A stretch of 64,000 nt of DNA from Verrucomicrobiota bacterium (GTDB lineage: Bacteria; Verrucomicrobiota; Verrucomicrobiia; Limisphaerales; UBA9464). The notes beneath the pieces are model-generated. The model was given only the letters and a program-made list of their open reading frames with translations. It searched no databases and was not told the DNA's origin. Shown one piece after another: positions 9,275-19,223 of this stretch (positions within the stretch are counted from its first letter, which is position 1; each line of letters starts with the position of its first letter). Position numbers and translations under genes: made by a program. The stretch spans positions 62,001-126,000 of the forward strand of contig CANGKZ010000011.1 in NCBI GenBank assembly GCA_947454705.1. Reading direction: 5' to 3'.

Positions 9275-12200
9275 ATGACGTTTTTCCGGCTGCGGTCCCT
9301 GCAGCGCCGCGCCTCACGAAGTCTCGCGCTTGTGCTCGTGGCCGCGCGCGCCACCGCGGCGGAACCCACGGTCGACGCCGCGCAGATGCCGCGCGTCAAA
9401 CCGCTCGAACCCGGCGAGGCCGTCCGATCCTTCCAGGTCCGCCCCGGATTCCGCGCCGAACTCGTCGCCGCCGAACCGCTGGTCCACAGCCCGGTAGCCG
9501 TCGATGTCGATGAGGAGGGCGCCGCGTATGTGGTGGAGATGCGCGATTATTCGGAGCGCCGACCCGAGCAGCTGGGCCGCATCCGTCGATTGACCTCCAG
9601 TCCCACCGCAGCTCCCGGTCGATACGACCACGCCGACGTCTTCCTCGCCAATCTGCCCTGGCCCACCGCCATCGCCTGCTGGGACGGCGGCGTGTTCATC
9701 GGGGCCACGCCCGATATCATCTACGCCAAGGACACCAATGGCGACGGCGTGGCCGACATCCGCGAAGTGGTTTTCACCGGATTCGCCTCCGCCTACGCGC
9801 CCTACGCCACCAACAAACTCAACGTTCAGGCGCTGCTGAATTCGTTCCACTTCGGACTCGATCATCGCATCCACGGCGCGGCGAGCATGTCGGCCGGCAA
9901 GGTGCACCTCGTGGACAGCGAGTTCACCCGCAAATGGCGCACGCGCTTCTCCGCCATGGGCCCCGCGCCGGTGGATGAAATCGCACTGAGTTCCGGAAGT
10001 GGATTTTCCTTCGATCCGCGCACGCTCGAGCTCCGCGCCGAAACCGGGGGCGGCCAGCACGGGATGAGCTTCGACGACGCCGGAAGAAGGTACGTCTGTT
10101 CCAATTCTGATCACCTTCAACAGGTGCTCTTCGACGCGGAGCAGGTGTCGGACTTGTCCTCCACCGGGCTCCCGGAGGCGCACGTGGGCATTGCGTCCGA
10201 CGGTCCGGCGGCCGAGGTGTTTCGCCGCAGTCCTGACGAGCCGTGGCGCGTGCTGCGCACCCGTTGGCGGGTCGCCGGACTGGTTCCGGGACCGGTCGAG
10301 GGAGGCGGACGTCCCAGCGGCTACTTCACCGGGGCCACCGGCGTGAGCATTTATCGCGGCGACGCCTGGCCGGAGGAATTCCGCGGCGATGCCTTCGTGG
10401 CCGATTGCGGCAGCAACCTAGTTCACCGGAAAAAGCTTCGCACCTTTCAAGATCGGATCCGTCGCGAGGGCGTTCGCGCCGACGATGAGAAATCGTCCGA
10501 ATTCCTCGCCAGCACCGACAACTGGTATCGGCCGGTTCAATTCTTCAATGCCCCCGACGGATGCCTGTGGGTGATCGACATGTACCGCGAAACCATCGAG
10601 CACCCCTGGTCGCTGCCCGATGGATTGAAGCGCCAGCTGGATCTCGATTCCGGACGTGACCGTGGCCGTCTCTGGCGCCTGCGTACCGAATCTGGTGCAC
10701 CCCTTCGCGGCACGCCGCATCTCGCCGGCCTGACCCCCGCGCAGTACGTGCAGTTGCTCAAGCATCCCAACGGCTGGCATCGCGACACTGCGTCGCGCCT
10801 GTTGTACGAGCGCGGTGGACGCACCCCGTTGGGTGATCTTCGGTCCCTCTTCCAAAGCTCCACCAACCACGTGGCACGTCTGCACGCCCTCGGGTTGCTC
10901 CACGGTTTGGGCGCGCTGGACGACACGCTGCTCGCGGGGGCGGTTCGTGATCCGGTCGCGGAAGTGCGTTGGCACGCGATGCGATGGATCCACGAGCTTC
11001 GCCACGAATCCGCCCCGGCACTTCAGGCCGTGCTGCGTGAAGTGGCGGACTCGGAAGTCGACGAGGCGGTGCGATTGGAACTTGCCCTTGTGCTTGCGCG
11101 TCAGCCCGCCGGGCCGCGGCTTTCGAACACGGCGGCGATGATCCGGCATCGACGCGACATGGCTCAGCAGGTCGCCGTCGCGTTGATCGGCGGCGCGGCG
11201 CCGGAGTTGTTTGTCGAGCTGACCGGTCCGGCGGGCACGCAACCGTTGAACCCGGTGTTCCCCGGATCCCCGATGGTTCTCACCACCCTGGCGCGAACCC
11301 TCGGAAGCCGGAATGACGCGTCCGCCGCTCAGTCGTTCTCCAGTCGACTGCCACGCCTTTCCGATCGGACCCTGGCCATTCAGCTCACCGCGGCCTCAAT
11401 GGAACGTAACGGAGGGACCCCGTGGCTTCCGGCTGTCGAGCCGGTCATCGCCCGGGCGCGCGAGGCCGTGGCGAAGGGGGATTCCGATGTCGCGTTTCAG
11501 AACTCGGTTCGACTGTTGTCCATGCTCCCTTGGAAAACGGTGGAGAACGCGTTGCGACCGCTGTTGGAGCCCACGCAATCCGAGAAAGCCCAGCGTGCCG
11601 GCGTCGATGCCATCAGCCGGTTCCGGGATGCTGCCGCGGTCAATGCGTTGATTGATGCCGCGCCCCGGTTGGTCCCTGCCGCCCGGCGCGCGTTGATCGA
11701 GGCGCTGGTGCGTCGATCCGATGCCGCGCCTCAGCTGCTGGCGGTCACGCACGACGGAAAAATCCCGCTGCGGGACTGGACTGTGGAGCAGATGAACCGG
11801 CTGCGGCGGCATGAAAACGCCGCGGTCCGCGCCCGGGCCGAGCAGGAATTCGGGGCCGTTCCTGCGGACCGCCAATCGGTGGTGGACCGTTTCCTCCCGG
11901 CCCTCGCGTTGACGGGTGATCCCAAGCACGGCGCCGCGCTGTTCCAGGAACGGTGCGCTGGATGCCACCAATTCAAGGGGCAGGGGACCGCGCTCGGGCC
12001 GGATCTGGCCTCCGTGGTGTCCAACGGACCCGAGAAGCTGCTGGTATCGATTTTAGACCCCAACCGCGAGGTGGCCCCGAATTTCACCGCCTGGACCGCG
12101 GAATCGACCGAAGGGGATTCCGTGTCCGGACTGCTGGTGTCGGACAACGATTCCGGCGTGGTGCTTCGCGTGGCCGGGGGGCAGGAGACCCGGATCCCCA

Positions 12201-12325
12201 AGGAGAAGCTCGCCCGACTCAAGCCCGAGGGCCGTTCCCTGATGCCGGAGGGGTTGGAATCAGGATTGGAACCGCAGGGAATCGCCGACCTGCTCGCGCA
12301 TTTGCTCGGAAATGGAACCCGGTGA
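9275..12325 (+). CDS. PVC-type membrane-associated dehydrogenase with HEAT-like repeats and c-type haem site
   Basis: 1016 aa with an N-terminal signal peptide (MTFFRLRSLQRRAS ... ATAAEP). Residues about 40-470 resemble the beta-propeller 'membrane-bound dehydrogenase' domain common in Planctomycetes and Verrucomicrobia (ELVAAEPLVHSPVAVDVDE, YVVEMRDYSER, GCLWVIDMYRETIEHPW). Residues about 480-850 are helical and HEAT-like (HRDTASRLLYERGG, EVRWHAMRWIHEL). The C-terminus is the PVC haem-binding domain, with CAGCH at residues 894-898 and GTALGPDLASV after it. It should act in the periplasm or at the membrane, passing electrons from an unknown, probably sugar-like, substrate. A short relative with only the haem domain lies at 38245. 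The electron acceptor and substrate are not shown. Confidence 0.82.
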   Translation: MTFFRLRSLQRRASRSLALVLVAARATAAEPTVDAAQMPRVKPLEPGEAVRSFQVRPGFRAELVAAEPLVHSPVAVDVDEEGAAYVVEMRDYSERRPEQLGRIRRLTSSPTAAPGRYDHADVFLANLPWPTAIACWDGGVFIGATPDIIYAKDTNGDGVADIREVVFTGFASAYAPYATNKLNVQALLNSFHFGLDHRIHGAASMSAGKVHLVDSEFTRKWRTRFSAMGPAPVDEIALSSGSGFSFDPRTLELRAETGGGQHGMSFDDAGRRYVCSNSDHLQQVLFDAEQVSDLSSTGLPEAHVGIASDGPAAEVFRRSPDEPWRVLRTRWRVAGLVPGPVEGGGRPSGYFTGATGVSIYRGDAWPEEFRGDAFVADCGSNLVHRKKLRTFQDRIRREGVRADDEKSSEFLASTDNWYRPVQFFNAPDGCLWVIDMYRETIEHPWSLPDGLKRQLDLDSGRDRGRLWRLRTESGAPLRGTPHLAGLTPAQYVQLLKHPNGWHRDTASRLLYERGGRTPLGDLRSLFQSSTNHVARLHALGLLHGLGALDDTLLAGAVRDPVAEVRWHAMRWIHELRHESAPALQAVLREVADSEVDEAVRLELALVLARQPAGPRLSNTAAMIRHRRDMAQQVAVALIGGAAPELFVELTGPAGTQPLNPVFPGSPMVLTTLARTLGSRNDASAAQSFSSRLPRLSDRTLAIQLTAASMERNGGTPWLPAVEPVIARAREAVAKGDSDVAFQNSVRLLSMLPWKTVENALRPLLEPTQSEKAQRAGVDAISRFRDAAAVNALIDAAPRLVPAARRALIEALVRRSDAAPQLLAVTHDGKIPLRDWTVEQMNRLRRHENAAVRARAEQEFGAVPADRQSVVDRFLPALALTGDPKHGAALFQERCAGCHQFKGQGTALGPDLASVVSNGPEKLLVSILDPNREVAPNFTAWTAESTEGDSVSGLLVSDNDSGVVLRVAGGQETRIPKEKLARLKPEGRSLMPEGLESGLEPQGIADLLAHLLGNGTR

Positions 12326-12386: not shown

Positions 12387-13655
12387 ATGGTGTTGAAGGA
12401 TCAGGATTCCAAGCGGGTGATGGTGCTCGGCGTGGGCGCTTTCACGCAGTTGATGATGCGACGTCTCCGTCCGGTGGCGTCGGTCTCGGCCTATCTCACG
12501 CGCGACTACGCCCACTGGGGCCCGCGTCAGGAGGGCCCGTGCGTCACCGCGGCCGAACAACCCAACCCCTGCGAACTCATCCGACGCGAGCGGCCCGATG
12601 TCATCCTGCCGATGTCCATCGAATGGGCCCTCAAGCCCTGGACCGAGGAATTCCTCGCGCTTCGGCCGCCGCTGCTTTGCCCCACCGGCGAGGGACTGCG
12701 GATCGAACGCGAACGCGACTTCGCCCGCGAGTTGTGCGCTGGTGCGGGAATTCCGTTTCCGCGTTCCGTTTTCGCCCGCACCTGCGCCGAGGCGATCGAC
12801 TGGGTGCGCCGCGAGAACCGTCCCTTCGTCATCAAGAACCCGCTCTGCTCGCCCACCAGTCCGATTCACACCATCGTGTGCGAATCCGTGGCCGACACCC
12901 TGGCCTGGATCCCGCGTCTCGATGACAGCGAGGGAATCTTTCTCCAGGAATACCTCGGCCGACGCGAGGCCGGTCACATTGCGCTGGTCAGCGCCGGTGA
13001 GATTTACCCTTTGGTCACCAATCAGGAGTACAAGCGCGCCTTCGACGGCAATCTCGGCGTGGTCGCCGGCGCGCCGCTCGGGGGATTGGTGGAGCGTGAT
13101 CCGGAAGACCGCTACGGACTCGTTCGCGAATTGCTGCGTCCGCTCCAGCCGTGGTTCCGCGCCGTCGATTACCGTGGGCCCGTCCAGGTCACCGCGATCC
13201 GGCATGAGAACCGCTGGCACGTGATCGAGTACAACGTGCGCCTCGGCGTCACCAGCGGTCCGATGATCGCCCAGATGCTCGCCAATCCGCTCGAAACCTT
13301 CATCGAATGCGCCGCCGGACGTCCGCTGTCCCCGCAGTGGCGACCGGAGGTGAAGTTCGGATGCAACCTCACGCTGGCCGGATACGGATACCCCTTCACC
13401 CAGCTCACCGGACCGAGGGTCCCCGTCCGCATGGAAGGTGAACCCACGTGCGACATCGGTTGGCAGGAGGTGACTGCTGCGGCGGATGGTTCGCTTGAGG
13501 CCACCGGACACCGTATTTGCGATGTCGCCGCCCTCGCCGACACCCTCCCCGCGGCCATCCAAATCGCCTATTCGAATTTGCGCCGCATCCATTCCCTCGG
13601 CAGTTATTACCGCACCGACGTCGGGGAATCGCTCTGGCCCCCGGGCGAAGCATGA
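12387..13655 (+). CDS. Divergent PurD-like ATP-grasp protein
   Basis: 422 aa. The order of segments follows phosphoribosylamine-glycine ligase (PurD): Rossmann-like start (KRVMVLGVGAFTQLM), the block LLCPTGEGLRIERERDFARE, FVIKNP in the ATP-grasp region, LVTNQEYKRAFDGNLG near residue 211 (compare PurD QDHKRxxDGDxG), and IEYNVRLG near residue 280. Two PurD signatures are altered: the glycine-rich ATP loop after VIK is replaced by NPLCSPTSPI, and the usual RFGDPE reads VRLGVTS. It is therefore unlikely to be the housekeeping purine enzyme. I infer an amino-acid or carboxylate ligase of unknown specificity, or an inactive relative. Its stop overlaps the alr start (ATGA at 13652), so the two are translationally coupled. 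No other purine gene is in the window. Confidence 0.7.
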   Translation: MVLKDQDSKRVMVLGVGAFTQLMMRRLRPVASVSAYLTRDYAHWGPRQEGPCVTAAEQPNPCELIRRERPDVILPMSIEWALKPWTEEFLALRPPLLCPTGEGLRIERERDFARELCAGAGIPFPRSVFARTCAEAIDWVRRENRPFVIKNPLCSPTSPIHTIVCESVADTLAWIPRLDDSEGIFLQEYLGRREAGHIALVSAGEIYPLVTNQEYKRAFDGNLGVVAGAPLGGLVERDPEDRYGLVRELLRPLQPWFRAVDYRGPVQVTAIRHENRWHVIEYNVRLGVTSGPMIAQMLANPLETFIECAAGRPLSPQWRPEVKFGCNLTLAGYGYPFTQLTGPRVPVRMEGEPTCDIGWQEVTAAADGSLEATGHRICDVAALADTLPAAIQIAYSNLRRIHSLGSYYRTDVGESLWPPGEA

Positions 13656-14920
13656 ACTGGAATCCCTCAGTCCCGGCCGCCGGTGCAGCGCCGCGTCCTG
13701 ACGATTCCACTCCTGGAATGACCCATCCGATTAGTACCGATTTTGATTCGACGTCTGGCGCTCCCGTCGCCGCGTCGCAGGACTACGCCTCGACGCGTCC
13801 GGCCTGGGTGGAGGTGGACTTGTCGGTGCTGGCGAACAACGTCCGCCTGATCCGTGCCGATTTGTCCAAGGCAGTCCGCTTGCTCTACGTGGTGAAGGAC
13901 GAAGCCTACGGGATGGGCGCGGTCGCTGCGGCGAAAGTTGCCCTGGCCAACGGGGTCGATCACCTTGCGATCTACACGCTCGAGGAAGCCGCGGCACTGC
14001 GCGAGGCTGGAATTACCGCACCGATTTTGATTCTCGGGGAGCGGACTCCCCTGGAAATCCCCGGCGTGATCGAGCTCAAGCTGACTCCCTGCGTGAGCTC
14101 CCTGGAGATGGCGCGGGAGTTTGATGCCGCGGGCCGGCGACGGAACCGTCCCGTGCCGGTCCACATCAAGGTGAACTCCGGCATGAACCGCTTCGGATTC
14201 CACTGGCGCGAGGTTGATGCGTGGTCGCGCGCTGTGGCGGGGCTGGGCGGACTCCGGATCGACGGCATCCTGAGCCACTTCGCCCAGAGCGACGAGGCGG
14301 ACAAAACCTTCGCGCACGAGCAGATTCGACGGTTCGAGGAGTGCCTCCGCGTGTGGGGTACGGTTGCGCCACGACCGCCATTGGTTCACATGTGTAATTC
14401 TGGCGGGTTTCTCGATCTGCCCGAGGCGCACTTCGACATGGTTCGCGTCGGGCTTCTGATGGGGGGCGTGTTTCCGTCCACGGTGTGCCGGCGCATCCCT
14501 GGCATCGCGTCGGCGCTTTCGGTGCGCACCCGCATCGCGGCCATCCAGCCGCTCGAACCGGGCGATACCGTCGGCTACGGCATGCGGTGGAGCGCCACGC
14601 GTCGGTCGCGAATCGCCGTGCTGCCGGTGGGCTACGGGGATGGATTCCCCCGGGTTCGCAATCAGGGCGAGGCCTTGATTTTCGGCCGTCGGGTTCCGCT
14701 GGTGGGAGGTGTGGCGATGGATGCGCTGACCGTGGACATCACCGATCTGCCCGGGGCAGAAGTGGGTACCGAAGCGGTGCTCATGGGATGCCAGGGGGCG
14801 GAGGAAATCACCGCCCGCGATCTCGCCCGCCTGAAGCAGAGCGTCACCTACGACGTGCTCGTGGGATGGCGTCGTCGATTGCCCCGCGTATATCGGGGAG
14901 GGAGTGGGGTGGCTCCGTGA
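13652..14920 (+). CDS. alr: Alanine racemase (PLP-dependent, fold type III)
   Basis: 422 aa. Interconverts L- and D-alanine in the cytoplasm, feeding peptidoglycan synthesis. The PLP lysine is Lys82 in LLYVVKDEAYGMG; the usual motif is VVKANAYGHG, so the residues around it differ. The opposite catalytic Tyr309 is present in VGYGMRW, and PVGYGDGFPR and GGVAMDALTVDIT are standard. An extra 45-residue N-terminus (NWNPSVPAAGAAPRPDD...) precedes the barrel. The start ATG overlaps the ATP-grasp stop by ATGA, and the stop overlaps the next start by GTGA, so it sits mid-operon. The altered PLP loop and the partners leave open a broader racemase substrate. Being sure of alanine would need the enzyme itself. 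Confidence 0.88.
   Translation: MNWNPSVPAAGAAPRPDDSTPGMTHPISTDFDSTSGAPVAASQDYASTRPAWVEVDLSVLANNVRLIRADLSKAVRLLYVVKDEAYGMGAVAAAKVALANGVDHLAIYTLEEAAALREAGITAPILILGERTPLEIPGVIELKLTPCVSSLEMAREFDAAGRRRNRPVPVHIKVNSGMNRFGFHWREVDAWSRAVAGLGGLRIDGILSHFAQSDEADKTFAHEQIRRFEECLRVWGTVAPRPPLVHMCNSGGFLDLPEAHFDMVRVGLLMGGVFPSTVCRRIPGIASALSVRTRIAAIQPLEPGDTVGYGMRWSATRRSRIAVLPVGYGDGFPRVRNQGEALIFGRRVPLVGGVAMDALTVDITDLPGAEVGTEAVLMGCQGAEEITARDLARLKQSVTYDVLVGWRRRLPRVYRGGSGVAP
14895..14904 (+). promoter_or_regulatory. Purine-rich ribosome binding site deciding a GTG start
   Basis: GGGGAGGGAG lies 12 nt before the GTG at 14917 and inside the end of alr. There is no ATG at that position, so this site is the main reason to start the transferase-like gene at the GTG, which overlaps the alr stop as GTGA. 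Confidence 0.55.
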
Positions 14921-15708
14921 AACTTCTTTTTTCCGAAGCGGCTCCCGACTACGGCCACTATTTGTATCCGTACGTGGTGTGGGGATTTCTGGAACCGGGT
15001 GAAACGCCGGCCAACGCGTTCGAGGCCGGGTTCCTGCCGGGGTCGCCCGCGATGGACCGGTTTTATCTCGTCCGACAACTCCGGGTGCCGCTGCGCGAGT
15101 GGGAGTCCACTTCTGAAAATCGACGTCTCCTGCGCAAGGCCGATGCCTTCGACTGCGAACTGATCCCGCGGGCCCAATTCCAGGACACACCGGAACGCCG
15201 GGCTGCGTGGCTGGCGTATGCTGCGGAAAAATTCGGTCCCGGGGTCATGCCTCCGGAACGGCTCGACCGTCTGATGAACGGGCCGATCATCAGCCACCTG
15301 CTTCACTTCACGGATCGCAAGACCGGGGCCGACGTGGGCACCGCGTTGATGTTCCTGCAGTCCCCGCGCGTGGCGTGGTATTACTACGCGTTCTATCGGC
15401 TGACTCCCGAGACCCGCTACGTGGGCATGGCCATGATGACCCGTGCGGTGGAGTTCTTCACCCACGAGGGATTTCATCATCTTCACCTCGGCACCTGCTA
15501 TTCCGAACGCGCGCTCTACAAAACGCAGTTTGAGCCGATGGAGTTTTTCAATGGCATGCGCTGGTCGCGGAATCTGGACGAACTGAAGCATCTGGTTCGC
15601 ACCACGCCCGAGGGACGTCACCGCCTGGAGGAACCGGAATTCCTCGCCTTTCAATCCGGCACGCCCGCGTCGATTGCAGAAGCCAGTCCGTTTCGGTCCG
15701 CTCGATAG
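14917..15708 (+). CDS. Arginyl/leucyl-tRNA-protein transferase-like (ATE/Bpt-like) protein
   Basis: 263 aa from a GTG. ATE/Bpt enzymes move an amino acid from aminoacyl-tRNA to a protein N-terminus using a GNAT-like fold. Here FEAGFLPGS ... FYLVRQLRVPLREW, then ENRRLLRKADAF, follow the N-terminal ATE pattern (GFRRS ... RPxC ... sQRRvlrrN). The C-terminal half has WYYYAFYRLTPE, YVGMAMMTRAVEFF, HLHLGTCYSERALYKTQFEP and FFNGMRWS, like the GNAT core of that family (YLGYwI ... M.YK..F.P.E). The Cys cluster of true ATE N-terminal domains is missing. I therefore call it family-like, not a proven arginyltransferase. It is coupled to alr by a GTGA overlap. A plain GNAT acetyltransferase is the main alternative. 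Confidence 0.6.
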   Translation: MKLLFSEAAPDYGHYLYPYVVWGFLEPGETPANAFEAGFLPGSPAMDRFYLVRQLRVPLREWESTSENRRLLRKADAFDCELIPRAQFQDTPERRAAWLAYAAEKFGPGVMPPERLDRLMNGPIISHLLHFTDRKTGADVGTALMFLQSPRVAWYYYAFYRLTPETRYVGMAMMTRAVEFFTHEGFHHLHLGTCYSERALYKTQFEPMEFFNGMRWSRNLDELKHLVRTTPEGRHRLEEPEFLAFQSGTPASIAEASPFRSAR

Positions 15709-15792
15709 TTGACCGCCTTCCGGCACCGATCCGCGCACTCCCCGGGGGAAGAAGTCCTTTCCCTTTTTTCTGTCGGCTTCTATGCATGGGGC

Positions 15793-16848
15793 ATGCGTTC
15801 CCCCTGCCTGTCTCTGATGCTCCTCGCCTCCGTCGCGACGCTTCACGCCGGAAGCGCCGATGGGCGGCTCGACCTGTACTGGATCGACTCGGAAGGAGGC
15901 GGATCCACGTTGATCGTCACGCCCACGGGAGAAAGCGTGCTCATCGATGCGGGCAATCCCGGTGGACGCGATTCCGGGCGCATCTTGAAAGTCGCCACCG
16001 AGGTCGCGGGATTGAAGCGCATCGACCATTTCATCAACACCCACTTCCACGTGGACCATTTTGGAGGCACCGCCGAGGTGGCGGCGAAGCTGCCCATCGT
16101 GAACGTGTGGGACAACGGCCTTCCCGCGCCGGATTCGGATCCGGACGGAAACAAGGCCTCGACGTGGCCCCTCACCAGCAAGCCGTATCGCACGATGCCG
16201 GTGAAGGAGCGTCATGTCGTGAAACCCGGGACCAAACTGCCGCTCGGATCTGGAAAAACGCCGATCTCGCTTCAGTGCGTGATCTCGCGTCAGAACCCCT
16301 GGAATCCTCCCGCGGGCTCCTTCGGCACCTGGAGCGGCGTGGAAGCGCCTGCCGCGCGTCCGGTGGACACCTCCGACAACGCCAACAGTTCCGCGTGGAT
16401 TCTCAGCTTTGGACCGTTCCGATTCTACGATGGCGGCGATGTGACCTGGAACTCGGAGGCCAAACTGGTCTGGCCCGAGAAGAAAGTTCCAACCGTCGAA
16501 GTGTACCAAGTCACGCACCACGGACTCGACGTGAGCAATCATCCGCTCCTGATCCGCGCTCTGAATCCGGCCGTGAGCGTGATGAACAACGGATCGACTA
16601 AGGGATGCATGCCTGCGGTCGTGGACACCCTTCGCGCCCAATCCTCGATCCGCGCGCAGTATCAGGTTCACAAAAACGTGCGTCCTGACGGCGCCAAGGG
16701 AAATGCGCCCGATGAGATGATCGCGAACCTGGAGGCAAACTGTCAGGGCCACTACATCCATTGCCGTGTGGATGCCGACGGACGCCACTACACCATCGAG
16801 ATTCCGGCCACCGGGCATTCCCGCACCTACGCCACCCGCGTGCCCTGA
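15793..16848 (+). CDS. Secreted metallo-beta-lactamase-fold hydrolase
   Basis: 351 aa with a signal peptide (MRSPCLSLMLLASVATLHAG). LIVTPTGESVLIDAG starts the fold. THFHVDHFGG gives the metal motif HxHxDH at residues 84-89, DGGDVTWNSEAKL is the later Asp region, and VTHHGLDVSNHPLLIRAL provides the final His. This arrangement is like the ComEC-type hydrolase domain, but with no membrane channel. The natural substrate is unknown; such proteins cleave phosphodiesters, lactones or lactams. It lies 84 bp after the ATE-like gene on the same strand and may or may not belong to that operon. A second ATG, in frame 84 nt upstream, was not used because it would bury the signal peptide. Confidence 0.78.
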   Translation: MRSPCLSLMLLASVATLHAGSADGRLDLYWIDSEGGGSTLIVTPTGESVLIDAGNPGGRDSGRILKVATEVAGLKRIDHFINTHFHVDHFGGTAEVAAKLPIVNVWDNGLPAPDSDPDGNKASTWPLTSKPYRTMPVKERHVVKPGTKLPLGSGKTPISLQCVISRQNPWNPPAGSFGTWSGVEAPAARPVDTSDNANSSAWILSFGPFRFYDGGDVTWNSEAKLVWPEKKVPTVEVYQVTHHGLDVSNHPLLIRALNPAVSVMNNGSTKGCMPAVVDTLRAQSSIRAQYQVHKNVRPDGAKGNAPDEMIANLEANCQGHYIHCRVDADGRHYTIEIPATGHSRTYATRVP

Positions 16849-16965
16849 GTTTGGTGCTTTCGGGTTTCGCGTAGCATTTGCGATTCTTTTGCTGCAACGC
16901 CGAGACAAGGAATTGCACGAGGGTTCCGATTGTGGACGGGCGCGCCCCGGGCGACACTCGCGCGA

Positions 16966-18162
16966 ATGAATCGGGATGTTGCCGGGCAGTTTCATGACCG
17001 CGTGGAAGAAGCTCTGACTGGCGGGACCCTCGTGCGCCTGCTCCTCGCCGGACCGCGCCCCGGCATCGCGGCCCGGCAGATCATCATTCGTCCCGTGGTG
17101 CTGAAATCCGGTCCGTGCTTCTCTGTCGTGCATCGGGAGGAGCGACGCGATCTCACCCACAATCACCCCGCCTCCGAAGTGATCCGCCTCGCCCGCGAGT
17201 GGCTGGGGAGTGACTACACCAGCGGGCATCTCCACACGCCGTCCGCGAGTTATCAGCTCGAGTGCCACGATCCCGCCCGTCCGCGTCTGAGCAAATCGGC
17301 CGGCGTCGCGGCCCCCAAGCCGGAGGACCTCCAGCACGATCGCACCCGCGCTCGAACGGTCGATGCCGGCGCCACCTGGCTTCAGCGCCTCGGCGTCACG
17401 CTTCCCAACGGACGCGTGGCCAAGGGCATGGAATCGAAGTTCCGGCAGATCCACCGTTTTCTCGAATTGATCGATCCATTGCTTGAATCCGCAACGTTCC
17501 CAAAGGATGCATCCGAACGCGTCCTCGTGGACATGGGGTGCGGCAAGGGTTACCTGACCTTTGCCGCAGCGGAGCACCTTGCCCGACGCGACGATGGACC
17601 CTGGCGCGTTCGGGGCATCGAGTTGCGACCGGAGCTGACCGCCTTGTGTCAGAAGACCGCCACCGAACTCGGCATGTCGCGGCTCGAATTTGTTCCCGGG
17701 GACATCGCGACCGCCGAGGTGCCTCGGGCGGATGTGTTGGTCGCACTTCACGCCTGCGACACCGCCACCGATGAAGCCCTCGCGCGGGGAATCCGGTTGG
17801 GATCCTCGGTGATTGTGGTGGCACCGTGCTGCCACAAGGAGCTTCGCCGCACCTTTACCGCGCCGCCCGTTTTGGCACGGGCGCTCCGGCATGGAATCTT
17901 TGCGGAGCGTCAGGCCGAGTTCATCACCGACGCCCTTCGCGTCGAGTTGCTCGAATGGGCCGGCTACGAAACGCGCGCCTTTGAGTTCATCTCCCCCGAA
18001 CATACCGGCAAGAACCTCATGATCGCCGCCGTTCGCACCCGGAAAGACGCCGACCCCGTGGCTGCAGCGGCGGTTCGCTCCCTTGCGCAGGGCTACGGCA
18101 TCCGACAGCAGCATCTCGCCACGCTGCTGGGATTTGATCTTTCCGCCCCGTCCACGCCATGA
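16966..18162 (+). CDS. SAM-dependent methyltransferase, METTL25/RRNAD1-like
   Basis: 398 aa. An N-terminal half of unknown role (residues 1-140, with NHPASEVIRLAREWLGSDY) is followed by a Rossmann methyltransferase domain. VDMGCGKGYLTF at residues 188-199 is the SAM-binding loop, and VRGIELRPELTALC follows. LHACDTATDEALARGI and VIVVAPCCHKEL are the Cys-rich block typical of the METTL25/RRNAD1 group of putative RNA methyltransferases. The target is not known. Its stop overlaps the start of the next methyltransferase gene by ATGA at 18159, so they are cotranslated and probably cooperate. No signal peptide; cytoplasmic. Confidence 0.78.
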   Translation: MNRDVAGQFHDRVEEALTGGTLVRLLLAGPRPGIAARQIIIRPVVLKSGPCFSVVHREERRDLTHNHPASEVIRLAREWLGSDYTSGHLHTPSASYQLECHDPARPRLSKSAGVAAPKPEDLQHDRTRARTVDAGATWLQRLGVTLPNGRVAKGMESKFRQIHRFLELIDPLLESATFPKDASERVLVDMGCGKGYLTFAAAEHLARRDDGPWRVRGIELRPELTALCQKTATELGMSRLEFVPGDIATAEVPRADVLVALHACDTATDEALARGIRLGSSVIVVAPCCHKELRRTFTAPPVLARALRHGIFAERQAEFITDALRVELLEWAGYETRAFEFISPEHTGKNLMIAAVRTRKDADPVAAAAVRSLAQGYGIRQQHLATLLGFDLSAPSTP

Positions 18163-19223
18163 ATCTCGAATCGATTGATTGGAATGCCCTGGAGCGCCTC
18201 CGGAAGGCGTTTCTCGGAGGCACCGCCGGGAACCACGCGTACTGGAGCACGCTTTCGGATCTGGCGAGTTACGACGCCACGTTTGCCGAGCGCATTGGCT
18301 GGAAGTGGGACGCCGTGCTTGCCGAGTTGGGACGCCTCGGATGGAACCCACCCACCGGGCCGGTGTATGACTTTGGATGCGGCAGTGGCGTTGCCGGACG
18401 GCGAATGCTCGCGAACTGGGGTTCGCAGGTGTTCACGGCGCTCAAGGTCAGCGATCGCTCGTCCCTCGCGGAGGATTTCGCCCAGAGCAAAGCCCGGTCC
18501 GAGCACCCGGGTTTGGAGGTTGGTCGATTCCAACCCGGAGTCGATCTTCCCTCCGAGCCGATCCAGGCCACGCTGGTGATCAGCCACGTGCTGAATGAGC
18601 TGAACTCTGCGGCGCGTCTGGAGCTGCTCCGCTGGATGCCTCGCTTCACTTCGGTGGTTTGGGTGGAACCTGGAACCCATGCCGACAGCCGGGCCTTGAT
18701 CGAAATGCGCGAACTCCTTCTCGCGCACTTCCGCGTTGTCGCGCCGTGCACCCATTGTTCGACCTGCGGTCTTAAGGCGGCAGGCCGGGAAGGGGACTGG
18801 TGCCACTTTTTCGGAACCCCCGCCGGGGGGATCTTTGCCGATGGAAATTGGGTTCGCTTCGGCCAGCGGATGGGAATCGACCTCCGAAGCGTTCCCTTCA
18901 GTTACCTCGTTCTCGATCGGCGCCCCGTCGCGGCGCTGGCCAGTTCGAGTCCGAATCCCGAGGAAATGTCGGAGGTCCGCCTTCTCGGTGAGCCCCGGAT
19001 GTACAAGGGATACGCCAAACTTTTTCAATGCTCCGCAGCCGGAGTGGATGAACTCGTGCTGCAAAAGCGCACGGATCCCCTGCTTTTTAAGAGGCTGGAA
19101 CGGGGTCGGCATTTTGGTCGATTTGCGATTCGCGCAGAAAAAGATCGGGTGACCTCGATCACTGAAATCCCTCCTAAGGGCGCAATTTTGACCGATGAAG
19201 CCGAGGGGAGCCCATTGGAATAA
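18159..19223 (+). CDS. Rsm22-like methyltransferase with four-cysteine motif
   Basis: 354 aa. The SAM loop is VYDFGCGSGVAG from about residue 69. ISHVLNELNSAAR and VVWVEPGTHADSRALIEMRELL, then APCTHCSTCGL ... GDWCHFF and FSYLVLDRRP, match the Rsm22 family of ribosome-assembly proteins related to mitochondrial METTL17. Cys197, Cys200, Cys203 and Cys215 form a CxxCxxCx11C set, consistent with the iron-sulfur site reported for that family; that part is inference. A 3' segment with MYKGYAKLFQCSA resembles an added RNA-binding tail. It is translationally coupled to the METTL25-like gene upstream. The likely role is small-subunit rRNA modification or assembly. Confidence 0.75.
   Translation: MNLESIDWNALERLRKAFLGGTAGNHAYWSTLSDLASYDATFAERIGWKWDAVLAELGRLGWNPPTGPVYDFGCGSGVAGRRMLANWGSQVFTALKVSDRSSLAEDFAQSKARSEHPGLEVGRFQPGVDLPSEPIQATLVISHVLNELNSAARLELLRWMPRFTSVVWVEPGTHADSRALIEMRELLLAHFRVVAPCTHCSTCGLKAAGREGDWCHFFGTPAGGIFADGNWVRFGQRMGIDLRSVPFSYLVLDRRPVAALASSSPNPEEMSEVRLLGEPRMYKGYAKLFQCSAAGVDELVLQKRTDPLLFKRLERGRHFGRFAIRAEKDRVTSITEIPPKGAILTDEAEGSPLE

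Follow-up and report, generated by a model that had tools for sequence, protein, structure and literature searches.

A 64,000-nucleotide stretch of a Verrucomicrobiota bacterium genome (assembly GCA_947454705.1, contig CANGKZ010000011.1, positions 62,001 to 126,000 of the forward strand; hereafter the window) carries three overlapping genes for a PurD-fold ATP-grasp protein (ATPg), an alanine racemase (ALR) and an arginyltransferase-like protein (ATE). We found that this trio is a conserved system and not a local accident. We give roughly even odds (about 50%) to the reading that it is a dedicated three-enzyme module which builds a short attachment of D- and L-amino acids. With slightly less confidence, we read it as a pathway not yet described that is common in a single order of Verrucomicrobia and has relatives among KSB1 and further uncultured bacteria. 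In this pathway a ligase derived from PurD and a tRNA-dependent transferase resembling ATE1 would produce a new cell-wall element, or a D/L-peptide metabolite, that contains D-alanine.

Conservation of the three-gene locus

A preliminary description of the window had reported three overlapping open reading frames on the plus strand, and their coordinates, their strand and both overlaps, ATGA and GTGA, were all found (Table 1). Among 44 ALR-ATE pairs whose ATE sequences differ, 24 overlap by exactly 4 nucleotides.

Table 1 Features of the locus in the window
Feature	Position	Strand	Description
ATPg	12387-13655	+	422 residues; PurD-fold ATP-grasp protein, predicted carboxylate-amine ligase; a role as glycinamide ribonucleotide synthetase is unlikely
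ATGA overlap	13652-13655	+	start codon of ALR and stop codon of ATPg; read in the sequence
ALR	13652-14920	+	422 residues, ATG start; alanine racemase with catalytic residues; variable extension over roughly the first 48 residues
GTGA overlap	14917-14920	+	start codon of ATE and stop codon of ALR; read in the sequence
ATE	14917-15708	+	263 residues, GTG start; ATE1/MprF/FemX-fold, aminoacyl-tRNA transferase-like

The distribution of the genes was followed in the family (UBA9464), the order (Limisphaerales) and the phylum of the window's genome (G000). Only a small number of top candidates was scored in each genome (7, 9 or 13, for instance), so that the counts are lower bounds, and many of the genomes searched are incomplete. 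In the family, ATPg (one fragment at a contig edge counted) and ALR were found in the same 36 of 49 genomes, always adjacent and on one contig, and the other 13 had neither. ATE was present in 48 of 50 genomes. Of the 34 genomes with both the ATPg-ALR pair and ATE, 19 have ATE after the pair, judging from coordinates, and the rest have it elsewhere.

Among 195 genomes of the order, 65 had ATPg and 66 had ATE, with both genes in 59, ATPg only in six, ATE only in seven and neither in 123 (Fisher p = 9e-35, a value that overstates independence since the genomes are related). All 65 genomes with ATPg have an alanine racemase (Alr). It lies within 3 kilobases downstream of ATPg on the same strand in 57 of them, and in six of the remaining eight it adjoins ATE instead. 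ATE follows the racemase in 54 of 66 genomes, and the complete order ATPg-ALR-ATE is seen in 47 of the 59 genomes with ATPg and ATE. Three incomplete sets stand at contig ends: the ATE-only genome G320 has an ALR-ATE pair broken by the end of its contig, and the contigs of the ATPg-only genomes G310 and G334 stop just past ALR. In a draw of 240 genomes of the phylum, all with a completeness of 85% or more, two gave an ATPg match, G000 and one other, and we therefore conclude that ATPg belongs chiefly to this order.

Named genome contigs were scanned for relatives of ATPg; 144 turned up, and 80 of them were retained. Several of the stretches end early. By their titles, the 80 loci belong mostly to Verrucomicrobia subdivision 3 and Limisphaerales, with others from Opitutia, KSB1 and unclassified bacteria. 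Within these stretches, ALR accompanies ATPg in 67, ATE in 44 and both in 43, and 41 have the order ATPg-ALR-ATE on one strand. With the 47 of 59 genomes of the order, this is gene coupling in excess of chance. The order is ALR-ATE-ATPg, with overlaps of 4 nucleotides, in locus L158, and the same order is found in G366, showing that the linkage outlasts rearrangement. When the genomes of 12 relatives (four KSB1, one Opitutia, unclassified bacteria, and Verrucomicrobia with and without the linkage) were searched for ATE, it was present in 10, including two KSB1 genomes and the Opitutia genome, where it stands apart from ATPg; in the other two of the four KSB1 genomes searched no ATE was found.

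The preliminary description had considered a dedicated system unlikely if the gene order occurred only here or in close relatives, or if the ATP-grasp gene was the only purD of the genome. The order recurs far beyond close relatives, and a true PurD is encoded in the window's genome at G000:C7. Conserved order, co-inheritance and conserved active sites, all reaching well past close relatives, argue for a dedicated system.

Folds and conserved residues of the three proteins

The sequence sets of 133 ATPg, 118 ALR and 98 ATE entries include repeats from the same genomes; 40, 41 and 52 sequences, respectively, remain at 80% identity. In Pfam, ATPg matches GARS_C above and GARS_A just under the gathering score. 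Its sole NCBIfam match is the PurD equivalog TIGR00877, at 87.7 bits against a cut-off of 288; among 38 members, one has a match to a PurK model as well. A profile search of solved structures returned only PurD at E up to 1e-4. The structural model (predicted local distance difference test, pLDDT, 90.9) aligned with 13 PurD entries at Z 32.4 to 38.5 over 379-400 residues, and thus has the PurD fold over the whole chain. Many other neighbours lie at Z 22-23. One of these is PylC, the pyrrolysine ligase that joins a D-ornithine derivative to lysine; it is near ATPg in structure (Z 22.9) yet only 12% identical over the aligned residues, and is tied with PurK, PurT and biotin carboxylases.

Residues K150, E281 and N283, which we take to bind ATP and magnesium, are invariant in 38 aligned ATPg sequences. 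The PurD motifs are lost. GSGGREH, which presumably contributes (as GxGGREH) to binding of phosphoribosylamine, is replaced by GVGAFTQ (family consensus GvG.F), KADGLALGKG by KNPLCSPTSPIHT and RFGDPE by RLGVTS, and the replacements are well kept. The canonical PurD of the same genome retains GSGGREH. In the family, a second, weak match was obtained in 30 of 36 ATPg genomes, as expected of PurD; the one in G000 is the only one that was read. ATPg is thus a PurD-fold ATP-grasp protein without the PurD motifs.

ALR gave strong matches to Ala_racemase_N and Ala_racemase_C and scored 309.7 bits with TIGR00492 (cut-off 168). As catalytic reference we used 13ld, a Geobacillus-type alanine racemase chain. 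The residues aligned to its K39, Y43, R136, H166, R219, Y265, M312 and Y354 are kept in 119 of 119 ALR entries (repeats included), and the position aligned to S204 is Ser in 117 and Thr in two. We assume for the pyridoxal phosphate lysine, the catalytic Tyr265', Arg219, Arg136 and the alanine-type Tyr354 the roles that these residues have in alanine racemase. Tyr400 of ALR is of the alanine type; serine racemase 4ecl has Asn at that site.

A tree of 40 racemases comprised 24 sequences of the system clade and 16 other Alrs of the order. The 22 linked racemases, among them one from KSB1 and one from RSWS12, form one side of a 100/100 branch, with the sole, unlinked Alrs of G343 and G347 nested among them. 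Outside this clade stand ten Alrs whose genomes lack the system and six additional ones from genomes that have it; L206 and L201 are long branches, and their placement is unsure. An unlinked Alr occurs in eight of the 65 ATPg genomes and is in two of these the only Alr, of the system clade. In G000, no Alr above the cut-off was found besides ALR, and an Alr is present in 58 of the 123 genomes of the order without ATPg and ATE.

Many genomes of the order gave no Alr at all. TIGR00492 found nothing at E up to 1e-20 in 71 of the 195, some of them incomplete, and Alr was undetected in 36 of 110 genomes with completeness of 90% or more and contamination of 5% or less. In the family, 13 genomes are without a detectable Alr, and Ddl was found in all eight of those checked, so D-alanine must there come from another enzyme or from outside. 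Ddl is separate from ATPg and scored above its cut-off in 15 of 15 genomes examined; a role as substitute for Ddl was rejected on this ground.

The ATE protein of the window matches ATE_C below the threshold (15.1 bits against 25) and, in NCBIfam, arginyltransferase models only (27.4 against 267 bits, residues 54-221). In 41 members, ATE_C was the most frequent Pfam match (38), and Acetyltransf_6 was matched by 24 (E up to 0.1). Searching solved structures with the sequence of ATE gave no match. With the structural model (pLDDT 90.9), the 50 Foldseek matches listed were all tRNA-dependent transferases (ATE1, MprF/A-PGS, FemX and Sba18/Sbb17). VIA-align gave Z 16.7 for human ATE1 (246 residues), 13.2 for MprF, 10.7 for FemX and 10.1 for streptothricin peptide synthases; the MprF synthase domains aligned over 162 residues at 2.9 Å. 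As modelled, ATE has the fold of the GNAT-fold aminoacyl-tRNA transferase superfamily. The earlier label "ATE-like" is therefore right for the fold and does not hold at the family cut-offs, ATE_C being below its gathering score. Lys202 is invariant in 99 of 99 ATE entries and, in the match to 1ne9, lies 12 residues before the aligned end, where the catalytic Lys305 of FemX would also lie. It might be the equivalent of this lysine, an assignment based on matching spacing and not on a residue-level alignment.

Predicted chemistry and competing explanations

The preliminary description had proposed a racemase, an ATP-dependent ligase and a tRNA-dependent transferase, and the predicted folds and conserved residues are compatible with this chemistry. 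From the directly observed genes, their conservation and co-inheritance, the folds and the catalytic residues of ALR, we infer the following scheme. ALR would racemise L-alanine to D-alanine. ATPg would then activate a carboxylate, most likely that of D-alanine, as acyl phosphate and couple it to an amine; its homologue PurD activates glycine. Finally, ATE would take an L-amino acid from aminoacyl-tRNA and attach it to an amine, either on the same acceptor or on the product that already bears D-alanine. A precursor of the cell wall or a small molecule is the probable acceptor. A side chain of the cell wall seems about as likely as a small peptide or conjugate, and lipids and proteins less likely. 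In the order, ATPg and ALR come and go together, and ATE is sometimes alone or missing, which suggests that D-alanine belongs to the ATPg step.

Transfer RNA is not known to carry D-residues normally. These therefore need a route driven by ATP, and L-residues can come from tRNA. The trio is what a two-step assembly of D- and L-residues would predict. The cross-bridges of Gram-positive bacteria are described as receiving D-residues through ATP-grasp enzymes and L-residues through tRNA-using GNAT-fold ligases (PMC2922099). In Lactococcus, the ATP-grasp D-Asp ligase AslA and the aspartate racemase RacD are encoded in one operon (PMC4155827).

In AslA/Aslfm and RacD of Lactococcus and Enterococcus, a racemase and an ATP-grasp ligase encoded together make and attach a D-amino acid, as ALR and ATPg would. 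A racemase beside an ATP-grasp ligase is the arrangement of the 57 of 65 genomes described above. In contrast to AslA and RacD, the trio has an alanine racemase, a PurD-like ligase and, in addition, a protein like a tRNA transferase. Alanine racemase and RacD belong to different racemase families, and in the model searches ATPg matched PurD. The GNAT-fold match of ATE to FemX and the streptothricin enzymes likens it to FemABX, VlmA, DhpH, PacB and Orf11; natural-product aminoacyl-tRNA transferases of this group have been described (PMC12945691). Unlike that group, ATE is nearer to ATE1 by Z and aligned length, and ATE_C is its most frequent Pfam match. The logic of the trio thus resembles AslA/RacD plus FemABX, carried by different enzymes. 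The enzymes come from known superfamilies, and the logic has precedent. A description of the trio was not found in the open-licence PubMed Central (PMC) literature, which is weak as evidence of absence, and the combination of ATP-grasp protein, alanine racemase and arginyltransferase gave nothing there.

Several observations weigh against a dedicated module. ALR is lacking from 13 of the 80 ATPg loci within the stretch examined (the whole genomes were not searched for ALR), and in L140 ATPg and ATE adjoin each other without an intervening ALR. The full trio was seen in no single KSB1 genome, the sets there being partial so far (ALR was not searched KSB1-wide); one KSB1 locus has ATPg and ALR in a genome without ATE. 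All 13 family genomes that lack the ATPg-ALR pair have ATE, and ATE occurs without ATPg in seven of 66 genomes of the order, G320 with its contig end among them. Conversely, the pair occurs without ATE in two of 36 family genomes and in six of 65 genomes of the order, of which four are of one genus and two are at contig ends; in one genus (g140 in f58), the members with the pair have no ATE. In ATPg, NPLCSPTSPIHT stands in place of the usual glycine-rich ATP loop, and residues 155-157 of this loop have low confidence in the model. The CoA-dependent acetyltransferase VipF reached Z 10.9 with ATE, level with FemX, so that the fold by itself is no proof of tRNA use. Finally, a second Alr is seldom found in genomes with the system, so that supplying the cell wall may be a further role of ALR, or its main one.

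This last point leads to an alternative in which ALR is the housekeeping racemase for D-Ala-D-Ala, and ATPg and ATE form a separate pathway that merely shares its operon. ALR as the sole Alr of G000 above the cut-off, the rarity of a second one and the presence of Ddl in every genome examined agree with it. We nevertheless regard it as rather unlikely, since the linked racemases included in the tree form one clade apart from the other Alrs of the order, six ATPg genomes carry another Alr besides that of the system, the Alr-less family genomes with Ddl indicate that D-alanine can have another source, and the genes are still together after rearrangement in L158 and G366. A modification of membrane charge, in which ATE would aminoacylate a lipid like MprF and ATPg would add D-alanine, is improbable. 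Among the structural groups that match ATE, the MprF synthase domains rank second, but ATE1 fits better and across more residues, and no recurring transporter or flippase was noticed beside the genes, though membrane proteins were not searched for.

Even less probable is tagging of proteins by ATE as in the N-degron pathway, with ATPg modifying the same proteins; protein tagging was among the roles suggested in the preliminary description. ATE1 is the best structural match, nearly full length, and the weak NCBIfam match is likewise to arginyltransferases. Set against this likeness to ATE1/Bpt arginyl/leucyl-transferases, the ATE of the window is below every cut-off, and G000 has its own canonical ClpS and Aat, within 1.5 kilobases of each other on C5. 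In the 195 genomes of the order ATE was not associated with ClpS (47 of 66 genomes with ATE against 78 of 129 others, p 0.16) or with Aat (p 0.54), and 18 of the 66 ATE genomes have neither; the N-degron role is disfavoured by these tests. The Cys-x-x-Cys-type N-terminal metal site of ATE/Bpt is absent as well: within the first 60 residues the window protein has no Cys, and 91 of 98 entries have fewer than two (46 none, 45 one, seven two or three). Yeast ATE1 coordinates zinc through cysteines 20 and 23 (PMC10115844).

That ATPg is a second glycinamide ribonucleotide synthetase, in an operon of purine and amino-acid housekeeping, is hardly credible. Its sequence matches are nearly all to PurD and its fold is that of PurD, but the score is far below the equivalog cut-off, GGREH, ADGLALGKG and GDPE have given way to other well-kept residues, and a canonical PurD is encoded elsewhere in G000; this candidate was rejected.

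The dedicated D/L-module would join three enzymes with generic or misleading best matches into one predicted pathway of little-studied bacteria. If true, it would add a new D-amino-acid ligase and one more case in which GNAT-fold tRNA transferases were recruited, and would give a concrete chemical to seek. It also touches on the open point that many genomes of the order are without a detectable alanine racemase.

Genes around the locus

Neighbouring genes were clustered in 20 stretches and the window, and were read by eye in ten named loci, 13 further stretches and eight loci. The neighbour lists come from a codon-score gene caller and are approximate; ATE of the window was masked there by other reading frames, and no genes are listed for L067 and L069. 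Clusters c3 and c5 occur in eight and six of 21 family stretches. No fourth partner gene, c3 and c5 included, was seen to recur in distant loci; no systematic partner search was made. A search for defence systems gave no PADLOC match at E up to 0.01. In L119 (8511-9222) and L128 (6049-6372), MNT nucleotidyltransferase-like genes lie between ALR and ATE, in L119 together with a HEPN-like gene, a pair of toxin-antitoxin type; these identities were assigned by eye.

Directly upstream of ATPg, the window encodes a protein of 1016 residues with DUF7133, HEAT repeats and cytochrome c domains (9275-12325), and directly downstream of ATE a metallo-beta-lactamase fold protein (15709-16848). The clusters of both are kept in L061, L062 and L063, from the same genus, the former preceding ATPg and the latter downstream of the module. 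Further downstream (16930-19223) are two adjoining methyltransferase-like genes, Methyltransf_32 and Rsm22, which overlap by 4 nucleotides.

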